A stretch of DNA of 64,000 bases, taken from positions 4,736,214-4,800,213 of the forward strand of contig NC_058058.1 of NCBI RefSeq assembly GCF_020085105.1, in the 5' to 3' direction. A model generated the notes under the pieces. That model was not told where the DNA came from. It was given only the letters and a program-made list of their open reading frames with translations, and ran no database searches. Each line of letters starts with the position of its first letter. The stretch's first letter is position 1. Below are positions 8,624 to 14,600 of the stretch, one piece after another. The stretch is from Siniperca chuatsi. Its lineage: Eukaryota; Chordata; Actinopteri; Centrarchiformes; Sinipercidae. The translations under genes and the position numbers were made by a program.

Positions 8624-11600
8624 TCAGAACAGGAATGGATTGTTGTTTTTGTTCACTGTCTCACCCAGCCCGCTGCCTGAGAGCCACTGCGGCTGGAAGG
8701 GGACTCCACCCCCGGCCTGTGGAGTGGATCCTCCCAAGTGAGCCACTCCTGCTTGGCGATTCCCTCCAAAGAAACTGGACTGACCCATTCCTGTTCCAAA
8801 TAAGAGGGGGTCTGCCAAAGGATTCCCCACCAGAGATCCAGACTGCACCATTCCCACTCCTCCACAGGGGGGGTTCATGTTAAGTCCCATTTGTGGACTC
8901 CCTCCCACAGAAACGGATTGTACCATTCTAGTTCCTGAACACGGAGGAGCCACCTGAGCTGCCTGAAGCATATTTAAGCCAGAGTGAGACACCCCCATGG
9001 TATGGGATGGTAGCTGAAATAGGGGAGTTTCACTGACAGCATTGGCAGCTCCAAAAATGGGAGAAGGTGCACTAAAGGAGGGAGCAAGGGTGGAACCAAA
9101 AGGACTGCAGTATGGGGCTGATGTTTCAGGAAAGGACACCCCTGCAACAGCCCCTGGTCTGACCACAGATGTCATGCCCCTGGCTTTGAAAGCGCCTGGG
9201 AAATTAGGAGGTGTAACAGGAAGATGGAGGGATCAGGGGAAGGAGGAAGGGATGTACAGTTTGAAGTATTCCAGCAAAGAGAAAATGCACCAAAGCAGAG
9301 AGAGGGGTGAGAAGAGTTAAATATCTGCTGGTTAATATACACTAGTCTCTATATTAAACTTCAATAGGTCACACACACACACACACACACACACACACAC
9401 ACACAGAAAAACATCTATACACTACTGCGAGACTACGGGGTAGGGGTGGTTAGGCAAAACACAATAAGCTTTTCCATACAAACCTATTAATAAATATTTA
9501 TTTGTCAGTCATAATGTCTCCACCCCCCTCTCTGTCTCTCTCTCTGGACTGAAGACTTCAGCTGAACAGTAGTGGAATGCATTTGAAACATCACCAGGAG
9601 ATCATTTTTAGTATGTCAGTAATTTTCCAGTCTTTGACGTTGATCGTGCATTTGAATCAAGCGCACCACAAATAATTCCACATGAAGTTTTTGTCAGAAA
9701 CGGTATTTTTCACCCAGAGTGAAGCATTTTTTCTGTCCTTACCAATGGCTTGTGTCTGGGCGGCGAGCGAGTTGACAAGGGGGCGCTGTTTGGGTTTGGG
9801 GTTAGAAGAAAATAGATCGTCCAAGTCAACAAGCGATGCCCCCGCAGAGCCCAGAAACGAAGCAGTCTTTCTATTCGTCTCCTTTTCCTGCGATGTTTGC
9901 TTTCCTGCAATAAAATAAAGGTCCAATTCTACTCTAAAAGGTGTTTTCTTTTGGGGACAGGTCAGGGAGGAAGAGAGAGCAAAGCGGAAGAGAAGTTTAA
10001 TTGATTATGATTGTTAGCCAACTGCTGACTGATGGGAAGATGGAGGTGAAGTGGTGAATATGGAAAACGGTCACACATGCAAATGACCATTAAATGTACA
10101 CATGAAAAGCGTATATTCATACATAAATGCAAATAAACACAGATGCAGGCACAAACAGACAGTTAAGTTTTTAGTCACCATTCTCAGCCGAGCACTAAGC
10201 CTGCTGGCATAGACTTCTACTGATTAAAAACAAGCAGAAATTTTAGCAGACTACTGCTAAACACAGAACAGATTTAGTTGATTTAACCAGAGCAGAACAT
10301 GTTATAGCTGAGGACAAAGCAGACACTGAGGTGTTACTCTATGAATTATGGATGGATCACAGAAATATGCATTCAGGCAGCCTATAAAGTGCAATTTACC
10401 TGTCCCATTGCTAGGTGCGTTGTTCGGTGCACCCCAAGGATCACATTTTTTAGATGCTCCGTCTCCAAAGGGGTCACTAGATGGGGAGGAGTCTGCGGGC
10501 GGAGCCGGTGAACCCCACGCATCATCTGTGCTAACTGAAACTGCAGCTAAGCAGAGAAATAGAGCAGGCAGGGTCAATGGGGACAAAATGATATACAGAA
10601 GAGACCAATATTTCAGTCTAATGGCTTTGTTACTTCTGTGTTAAAATACTTTAAACATGAGGTTCACTTATTAGCTTTTTCTGGAGCTTTCAACCATATC
10701 ACACGGTTTTCTTCAGCAACTGGAACTGGCCCAGGTGTCATCGTGTGACTTAAGTGAGGAACTTGGCGATGTAATAACAAGTGGATGCATGTGGGGGGAG
10801 ACAGTAATCTCGGTCTTTGTTTAAAGATTGTCTGTAACGCCAGATGCAAATGGCCTCCTTGATCTTTCTCAAACTGTCCACTGACTCCTGGTTGATGACT
10901 TTGAGCTCTTCCCAGTTGATACTATGACTGGTTTTGATGTTTACAGATAGCTGATGTCTGCTTCCGGTGCCCTTTCAATCTCTTACTCGGAGTTCTTGCC
11001 ATTTCACCAACAAAGTGTTCCCCACAGCTGTTGCGAGTGATGCTTAAAGGCTGCAGGAGGTATGGACTCCTTGTACCTTCAAGACTCTGGCTAGATATTC
11101 CAAAAGCCCAACTATGTCCCACTGGAAAGATTCTGGTGCCACAACGGTTACGTCCCCCCTTTATATGGCCACTTGTTATCACATGATCAAAGTTTTGATG
11201 ACACCTGAGCAAGTTCCATTTGCTAAAGAAGGCCATGTGATACAGAAGAAAGCTCTAGTAAAAACTACTAAGAACCTTAAGTTTAGAATATTTTATCAAA
11301 TAAATGTGTTCCCAAGTTCCAAGAATTAATCTTTATGCATTTATTTGTTTGTTTCTTACCTGGGGCTCCCCATGGGTCATTGTCCGGTTTGGATGCATCT
11401 CCAAATGCATCACAACTATCAATGGGGGAGGAGGCCCTTATCCCATCCCCCCAGGGATCTTCGGCCTTTCTTTCCTTTGGAGCAGATGGCGCCCCCCAGG
11501 GATCTGACCCGGTGGCGGGTGGAGGGCTAGCAGGGGCTCCCCACGCATCTGCACTGTCTTGGGGCGAGCTCACCAGAGGGGCATTGAAGGGATCTGAGGC

Positions 11601-14600
11601 ATCATCTTTTGGTGGGCTAGATGGCACTGCGAATGGGTCTTCTTTAGGGGGTGCTGCTGGTGCACTGAAGGGGTCATCTTTTGTAGGTTTGGATGGCGCA
11701 GAGAAAGGATCCTCTTTAGGTGGTGTTGTTGGTGCAGAGAAAGGGTCGTCTTTTGTAGGTTTGGGTGGTGCAAAGAATGGATCCTCTTTAGGTGGTGTTG
11801 TTGGAGCAGCAAAGGGGTCATCTTTTGTTAGTTTGGATGGTGCAGAGAAAGGATCCACTTTGAGTGGTGTTATTGGTGCAGCAAAAGGGTCATCTTGGGT
11901 AGGTTTAGTTGGTGCAGAGAAAGGATCTTCTTTAGGTGGTGTTGTGGAAGCAGTGAAGGGGTCATCTATTGGGGCATTAAAAGGATCGTCTTTTGGGGTG
12001 TTGAATGGGTCATCCTTTGGGGTGTTAAAAGGATCATCTTTTGGAGCATTAAACGGATCATCTTTTGGAGCACTGAATGGATCATCTTTGGGTGCATTGA
12101 ATGGATCATTGTTAGATGAACTGAAGGGATCTGGTTTATCTTTTGGAGCAAATGGATCTTCCTTGTCTTTGGGTGCATTGAAGGGGTCTGAACTATCTTT
12201 TGGTGCATTGAAAGGGTCATCTTTTGATGCACGAAATGGATCGGATTCATCTTTTGGTGCAGCAAATGGATCTTCGTCAGTTTGTGGTGCTGCAAATGGA
12301 TCTTCATCAGTTTTAGTTGGAGCCCCCCAAGGATCACTGCTGGCTACTGTGTCAGTTGTGTCTGGTCTTGTGGGTGTGCCCCATGGATCTGTGGCCTCTT
12401 TAGGTTCTTTGGGGGTTCCCCATGCATCTGGTTTCACCTCCTCCTCGGCTTTCTCTCCTCCCCAAGCACCTCCTTTAACGCCATTGCCTTTGCCAGCATC
12501 CTCCCATTTCAGCTCGTCTTCACTCATCTTGGCCTAGAATATTACCATTGCAAAATTAGAAATGTAAACACAAACACTTACTAACGGTTTCATTAGTGGT
12601 GTAACTAAACCTCTCCTGTTTACACAACTCAAACAAGTTAACAGAACTTGTTTTATGATAAAGGCCCAAAATGCCAACTGAAACCAAAAACTCTCTGAAC
12701 TAGTCAAAAGTATAGTCAAAAGACTAAAAGGTGCTTACACACAGCAGCTAGCTATCTGAAAGCACATAATGGGAGAGATTTTTTACTTTTTTGATCGCTT
12801 CTTTTTTGACTGAAGTTTGTGAACTCTGTAATCTCATTTCAAATGCTCTATTGTTTTACTGAAACTTTGCATTTGTTTTTGGTTGATCATTTTATGATTT
12901 ATTTTATATATTGGGTGATAAATTCATCTTATCTATAGAAGGATACAATGAACGAGCAGGCAATGGTTTAGTGTCTCACAGGATATAGTGGATATAGTGT
13001 AATTTGTGAGGATTGTATCTCCTACCTATCATTAACGTGAGTCTCTCAGAGTACTCCTAAAAAAATAAGCTTCTTTAATATATATATATATATATATATA
13101 TATAATATATATATATATATATATATATATATATATATATATATATATATATATATATAAATAAATAAATAAATAAATAAATAAATAAATAAATAAATAA
13201 ATATAAAACAGAAGAAAGGCACAATGAACTGGTGTAGTAGTGCTATTGTGTCCACTTGCTGTAGCTGAGCACTGTACTTGCTATACGCTTACCCTTCTCT
13301 CTGCTTCTTTCTTCTCAGCTTCCTGTCGAAGACGCTCCTCTTTGCGGGCTGCAAAGGAAGCAGTCAAATCGGCCACTGAGGGTATATTGTCTAAGGATGG
13401 AAGCCCCGAGCCCCCAGCAACGTAGCATGGCTTGTAGTTGGGATCCTTGATTGCATCGGTTGATGAGGCTGATTAGAAGGGATGAAAAAGAGATTGAATG
13501 AGATTTGTGTGAGAGACACAGACAAATAAAGAGAATTATACTAAAATAGTTGAAACAATGGGTACTTAGCAGTGATACTTCAGGACAGAAGGGCTCACCA
13601 GCAGAGCTTTTTGATGTCTTCTCTCTGGTCTTGACGGCAAAGTCTCTCTCCTCCTTTAGTTTCTCATCGTCCTCCATAAGAACAAGGACAACCTTGGCCT
13701 TCTCTCTCACATTTGCACCCTGGGACAGATATGTTTAAATTAGACTTTGATTTGACTCTGACCATTTGAGCAAAATCCTATCTAAGCCTGAAAAACGTAT
13801 ACCCAAAACAAACCCCAAATGTTACAAGTCTTGTAAAACAAGACCAAACCTAACTACAGTCTAAATTTAACCAATAAATAAATAAATAAACTCTGACGTA
13901 AGCCCTTTGGGTCTAGTTAAGTCTGAAAGTTTCAAGCATTGTTACGCTGGAGAGCTACTGAAACAAGGCTTTCTTAAATTTGTTTGAGACAGCAAACCTA
14001 GACTGAATCTGTTTTCGTCCTTTAATTGTGAACCTGGCTTGGTGGTTAAAAGAAGTGTGACGATATGGATATTATAGTGCCAATAATGGGTAACCCTACC
14101 TTGTAATGGATACTAAAAGGCTGCATGCCTTGGACATTATCAGGAAGCATGTATCACCTGATCTTTGCCATCCTTTTCTACAAAGCGATACTCTGTGAGG
14201 GCTTTGACGATGTAGATGTTGTCTTTCATTTTCAGAAGCACACGATCGTCACCGGTCTTTAACAGGTATTCCAGCAGTGTCAGGGACTGGTATGAAAAAA
14301 GCATGACAGTGAACAAATTTATGTCAAACAAAAACGTATATGGCTGAAACAAAAATAAAGAGACAATCCAATTCCAACAGTTTTTTTTCTATATAATTGT
14401 GGAATTCATAGGACAAAACAACGATGAAAGAAACAAAACAAAATCTGTGTAAAATCACAGATTTGGTAGGAAAGGATAAGCAATATGTCAAAACATACAG
14501 CTTGCAGTGGATAGTAGACGTGTTGGGATATTTAAACGATCAATGAAGTTACGCTGCTGTGCCTCGTGCGTAAATGTGCACAGCATCTATCTTAATGGGG

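Follow-up and report, generated by a model that had tools for sequence, protein, structure and literature searches.

We report an epsin gene whose protein tail carries 24 DPF tripeptides in one tandem array and no ubiquitin-interacting motif (UIM), found in a 64,000-nucleotide stretch of the Siniperca chuatsi genome (hereafter the window, C17:4736214-4800213; positions are those of the window unless a contig is named). We consider it fairly probable that this gene arose as a duplicate (ohnologue) of teleost epsin-1, has diverged strongly, and encodes a protein that collects AP-2 through avidity but does not read ubiquitinated cargo. In mammals, the ubiquitin-cargo reading of epsin is hard to tell apart from its AP-2/clathrin coat binding and membrane bending, and the window gene appears to have parted these two jobs by evolution, next to a nearly unchanged sister copy. 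It also offers a naturally evolved array whose AP-2 sites have changed in number and spacing without the close spacing read by FCHO, and hence a test of motif number in vesicle formation.

Gene model and anatomy of the DPF array

The gene was modelled from the genome sequence (Table 1); eight of eight introns run GT..AG with matching phases, and the 2706-nt coding sequence ends in its single stop. A preliminary description had called the product an epsin, and this identification held: the whole protein gives a Pfam ENTH match over residues 17-139 (E 2.9e-48), with ANTH below cut-off and one weak unrelated match, and the best match among solved structures is the epsin-1 entry 1h0a (E 6.6e-64), which we take to be that of the rat. 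In a tree of eight ENTH rows, the epsins, including the window copy, were split from epsinR/CLINT1 at 100/100. Alignments place preserved residues at all eight lipid-contact positions of rat EPN1, assuming that its contacts with phosphatidylinositol 4,5-bisphosphate (PI(4,5)P2) are R8, K11, R25, N30, R63, K69, H73, and K76. The tail of ~745 residues is disordered by composition.

The array was described correctly from the outset, since minus-strand translation of 11586-12302, within one exon, gives 239 stop-free residues holding 24 DPF, and both other minus-strand frames contain stops. In 20,000 shuffles of these 239 residues, DPF occurred 1.09 times on average and six times at most. The spliced protein also bears out the one extra DPF (residue 633) and the six DPW outside ENTH (residues 266, 284, 561, 576, 603, and 644), with a further DPW inside ENTH, so that the tail totals 25 DPF and six DPW, or 31 sites.

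An origin by tandem duplication of 24-nt and 72-nt units, as initially proposed, stands for most of the array. Tandem Repeats Finder reports periods of 24, 36, 48, 72, and 144 nt in 11631-12131 and a 30-nt period at 12255-12313, and the 23 motif-to-motif steps run 10, 10, 8, 10, 10, and 9 residues, then seven times 8, nine times 12, and once 15. Eight steps thus measure 8 residues (24 nt) and nine measure 12 (36 nt, or 72 nt per pair), the first half of the array stepping by 8-10 residues and the second mostly by 12; the 12-residue units are of two alternating types, which accounts for the 72-nt repeat. The proposal needs a small correction for the first six steps, which form no clean 24-nt repeat, five of them being 9-10 residues long. 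Among the 23 linkers, 13 have 5-7 residues (eight of them exactly five), ten have 9-12, and none has 1-4; they contain no glycine, abundant proline and lysine, and commonly alanine and serine. Five S/T-P-x-K/R sites inside the array hint at possible control by kinases. Separately, a long AT-rich simple repeat (13078-13205) occupies the intron immediately upstream of the DPF exon.

With 22% proline in the array, and 25% together with a net charge of -24 once its short flanks are included, the region could count simply as length, charge, and proline, i.e., a larger disordered brush would bend the membrane by crowding and the DPFs would add little. The length of the tail suits such a role, the disordered region of epsin-1 drives curvature (PMC4515776), and binding-induced expansion has been modelled for epsin (PMC7787433). 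However, DPF is preserved in 24 of 24 units despite varying linkers, which a pure filler would not need, and we regard this explanation as unlikely.

Table 1. Position of the modelled epsin gene, its exons and array, and the neighbouring IL11 gene
Feature	Position in window	Strand	Basis or remark
Epsin gene, nine coding exons, 901-residue product	8624..16783	-	model from sequence
Exon 1, ENTH helix 0 (MTSSMLRRQLKNLVQNYSEAEVK)	16715..16783	-	aligned to rat EPN1 1h0a
Exon 2, ENTH	15382..15537	-	Pfam ENTH E 2.6e-20 for the exon alone
Exon 3, ENTH	14158..14286	-	gene model and 1h0a alignment
Exon 4, end of ENTH	13599..13719	-	gene model and 1h0a alignment
Exon 5, no UIM; in the position of three UIM exons in the C9 duplicate	13293..13468	-	UIM expressions, Pfam
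Exon 6, 1174 nt, 24 DPF and 5 DPW	11360..12533	-	counterpart of the C9 286-nt DPW exon (same first codon, phases)
24-copy DPF array, 24-nt and 36/72-nt tandem units	11586..12302	-	translation, repeat analysis
Exon 7, 1 DPF, 1 DPW, 1 DAW	10400..10546	-	gene model
Exon 8, clathrin-box-like LVDLD; lacks the NPF present in its C9 counterpart	9743..9904	-	gene model, C9 comparison
Exon 9, terminal NPFLF and stop	8624..9195	-	gene model
IL11	44533-45715	-	second copy at C9:12058826-12059333

A diverged duplicate of epsin-1

An ENTH family profile search of the genome (718.8 Mb) gave 15 matches at seven places, comprising four epsins (C17, C9, C3, and C21), two genes on C14 and C8 that are presumably CLINT1-like, and one weak match at C9:23987825, which contains one stop and where a rat EPN1 query finds nothing below E 0.1. 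The open exons of the C9 epsin hold seven DPW, no DPF, three NPF, and three UIMs. The models of the C3 and C21 genes, which we take to be epsin-3-like, are incomplete, with at least three each of DPW, DPF, NPF, and UIM in C3 and at least one DPW, one DPF, three NPF, and four UIMs in the C21 tail. The preliminary description had proposed counting motifs in other epsins, and none of these three from the same genome has an array (DPF 0, at least 3, and at least 1). No second DPF array was found in the genome by an exon 6 query at E 0.001, although this search also missed Eps15, so differently spaced arrays may escape it. Weak matches to exon 6 at C3:359922 and C9:338558 were rejected as minisatellites whose listed frames lack DPF. 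As side observations, two long minisatellites near the starts of C3 and C9 (L033 1258-2727 and L034 475-2337), of PQSR and PHSV/PHTV types, are open in several frames, and the C21 epsin (segment L017 1627-2091) has its entire ENTH in one exon, vs several in C17, C9, and C3, an apparent intron loss.

The window gene is a duplicate of the C9 epsin-1 gene, because the two share neighbours: IL11 lies near both (at a distance of 46 kb on C9 and of ~28 kb in the window), and so does GSG1-like sequence, among the open reading frames of the window (placed by eye near position 1200) and in the 30 kb searched around the C9 epsin. These 30 kb also contain an isochorismatase-domain match; in human 19q13.42, IL11, SBK2/3, ISOC2, and EPN1 stand together. 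Neighbours were sought among open reading frames that had been selected for their length and codon composition (in the window, 147 of 150 that were themselves selected from 409; around the C9 epsin, 121), a choice by which short-exon genes may be missed. The exons tell the same story, with ENTH exons 1-4 matching and exons 7-9 alike in the two genes. Between the ENTH and DPW exons, C9 has three UIM exons where the window has one exon without UIM, and the DPW exon measures 286 nt in C9 against 1174 nt in the window, with identical first codon and phases. As the matching C9 exon has five DPW and no DPF, the initial view that the AP-2-binding region had expanded is upheld. The C9 ENTH contains the entire 139-residue stretch of 5lp0, presumably zebrafish epsin-1, and shows 93% identity to 1h0a, against 62% for the window ENTH compared with either structure; the end branches in the ENTH tree are 0.65 for the window copy and about 0 for C9. 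That the segment is conserved in two copies is in keeping with the teleost genome duplication; the pair may instead go back to an older duplication in vertebrates, since the ENTH tree does not place the long window branch among the epsins.

UIMs are absent from the window copy. The UIM expressions that recover three, three, and four UIMs in C9, C3, and C21, respectively, find no UIM-like site in the three minus frames of 8500-17000, and Pfam finds no UIM in exon 5 with the start of exon 6 or in the whole protein, whereas the C9 exons pass its cut-off (E 1.9e-5). Exon 5, the end of which (KEERLRQEAEKKEAERR) looks helical by eye, was tried as a UIM remnant; its match to the C9 UIM-3 exon (E 0.13) covers six residues only, and remnant status is therefore not claimed. 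NPF occurs once, at the C-terminus, vs three times in C9; epsins typically have multiple NPF motifs, which bind EH domains. There is one clathrin-box-like motif (LVDLD); the upstream box of mammalian EPN1 was not found in the window epsin, nor was an EH domain by Pfam.

Probable constraint on the motifs and predicted AP-2 binding

The 24 DPF tripeptides are encoded by 11 different 9-mers, and against the majority codons their differences are 33 synonymous and 0 replacement (8.6 of 33 expected to be synonymous; 0 of 20,000 simulations reached 33), a count biased by the choice of units, as weighed below. The linkers do change in protein sequence, with a proportion of nonsynonymous differences (pN) of 0.22 in the 8-residue units and 0.16 in the 12-residue units. 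Four 72-nt blocks are 76-88% identical, with a pooled synonymous divergence (dS) of 0.49 and a ratio of nonsynonymous to synonymous divergence (dN/dS) of 0.21; a fifth block (exon residue 287), more diverged with dS 0.69-1.02 to the others, was excluded from the pooled figure. Six 24-nt blocks gave a pooled proportion of synonymous differences (pS) of 0.83, beyond correction, with single pairs ranging from 0.31 to 1.29. Taking ~4e-9 synonymous changes per site and year, a dS of 0.49 would correspond to roughly 60 million years, an estimate drawn from few sites and one that conversion between units would make look younger; at such an age, the array is probably common to related species. The divergence among units also argues against an assembly artefact, and the gene is a real, intact-looking epsin variant that is probably under selection.

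These figures bear on whether the gene is instead a relaxed, decaying copy, its low-complexity exon inflated by replication slippage and devoid of function. The ENTH branch of 0.65, the loss of all UIMs, and one NPF against three in C9 would be expected of decay, but 901 open codons, eight intact GT..AG introns, the 33:0 count despite its bias, and the dN/dS of 0.21 over four 72-nt blocks would not, and we hold decay to be very unlikely.

DPF and DPW bind the AP-2 alpha appendage (PMC4921775, PMC4161027); a single DPF does so weakly, at about 200 uM, and arrays gain via avidity (PMC4921775). The same tripeptide has other readers: FCHO1 reads a triad of DPF separated by 2-3 residues (PMC4921775), the mu-homology domain (uHD) of SGIP1 binds paired DPF with a preference for 2-3 residue linkers and for glycine or other small linker residues (PMC4731787), and the EH domain of POB1 binds DPF (PMC2238750). 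The array could chiefly serve such partners, i.e., the uHD of FCHO1/2 or SGIP1 or the EH domains of POB1/REPS, and eight of its linkers have the 5-residue length that the SGIP1 uHD weakly accepts (PMC4731787). High-affinity uHD sites, however, need 2-3 residue linkers (PMC4921775, PMC4731787), and with none of its 23 linkers below five residues the array has no cluster of the FCHO/SGIP1 type; its linkers, glycine-free and rich in proline and lysine, also differ from the small-residue linkers bound better by SGIP1, though alanine and serine are common. A chief role for these readers is, in our judgement, distinctly unlikely.

Motif gaps are mostly 1-4 residues in Eps15, which has 15 DPF, and mostly 9-16 in epsin, which has eight DPW, and in modelling Eps15 chains take more appendages and epsin chains expand upon binding (PMC7787433). 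By its sequence, the array would represent an epsin-like, proline-rich, spaced tail with many more sites and without the FCHO code. The earlier idea of Eps15-like clustering on an epsin scaffold survives in part: the array is dense in DPF, but no linker has 1-4 residues or the high-affinity FCHO/SGIP1 length, and the protein lacks an EH domain. The AP-2 appendage is about 4 nm wide; if each bound copy takes up 12, 13, or 20 residues, 17, 13, or 10 of the 24 array sites, respectively, can be filled, so that the number filled simultaneously probably lies within 10-17. Given this steric limit, avidity and rebinding are expected, not 24 partners at once.

In the AP-2-gathering function that we favour, ENTH would still attach the protein to PI(4,5)P2 membrane, and the tail would offer its 31 DPF/DPW sites, 24 of them in the array, to the AP-2 alpha appendage, beside one clathrin box and the terminal NPF. 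Several AP-2 complexes would be held by avidity and fast rebinding and connected through the epsin to clathrin and to curved membrane; with the UIMs lost, the epsin should have given up the sorting of ubiquitinated cargo. AP-2 binding, clustering, and loss of ubiquitin sorting are all predicted functions. Some points weigh against this reading: the ENTH tree does not settle with which epsin the window copy groups, and the array gaps are tighter than usual for epsin, so neighbouring sites may exclude each other. The 33:0 count, too, is biased, the units having been chosen by their DPF; this is offset in that no linker exceeds 12 residues, which leaves no lost DPF unit concealed in the array. 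More tentatively, and as somewhat short of an even chance, we propose that after duplication a fish epsin-1 became dedicated to AP-2, dropping ubiquitin reading and building the 24-site array under selection, as an ENTH-anchored counterpart of the Eps15 pioneer.

Neighbouring genes and comparison with known systems

The epsin gene lies head to head with a Pfam DUF1681 gene, which we take to encode a protein like NECAP, another AP-2-associated protein; the two start codons are ~1.2 kb apart (16783-18015). The ratio of observed to expected CpG is 1.45 at 17600-18100 vs 0.37 across the window, and one promoter possibly serves these two coat proteins. Farther along, at ~33663-35800 on the minus strand, are protein kinase exons (Pfam kinase), presumably SBK-like.

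Searches of the open-licence PMC literature turned up no description of a DPF array in any fish epsin, which is no proof of absence. Searching viral contigs with exons 2 and 6, and prokaryote contigs with exon 2, confirmed no relatives, results uninformative about fish. In the same genome, a 22-residue EPS15 peptide query found no Eps15 gene, and an EH family search gave 10 matches.

With epsin-1 (the C9 gene, 5lp0, and rat 1h0a), the window protein shares ENTH with helix 0, exon order and phases, DPW, LVDLD, and the C-terminal NPF. It differs from the C9 copy in UIMs (0 vs 3), NPF (1 vs 3), DPF (25 vs 0), and ENTH identity to rat (62% vs 93%). The epsin-3-like genes on C3 and C21 likewise have ENTH and some DPF; unlike the window gene, they keep UIMs and three NPFs and have no array. 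The ENTH families have been classified (PMC3473312). EPN, like two other adaptors, is reported to have come to carry more linear motifs on the line leading to animals, and recognition of ubiquitin to have been acquired by EPN and Eps15 in opisthokonts (PMC4824007). An epsin of Dictyostelium is also described as UIM-less, in a passage that is silent on a DPF array (PMC4161027). Finally, Eps15/Eps15R resemble the window protein in having a tandem DPF array in a disordered region, in the known case a ligand of the AP-2 alpha appendage (PMC4921775), with 15 DPF in human Eps15 (PMC2238750); the window protein departs from them in lacking an EH domain, the 1-4 residue spacing, and the FCHO triad, and would make its contact with the membrane through ENTH instead.

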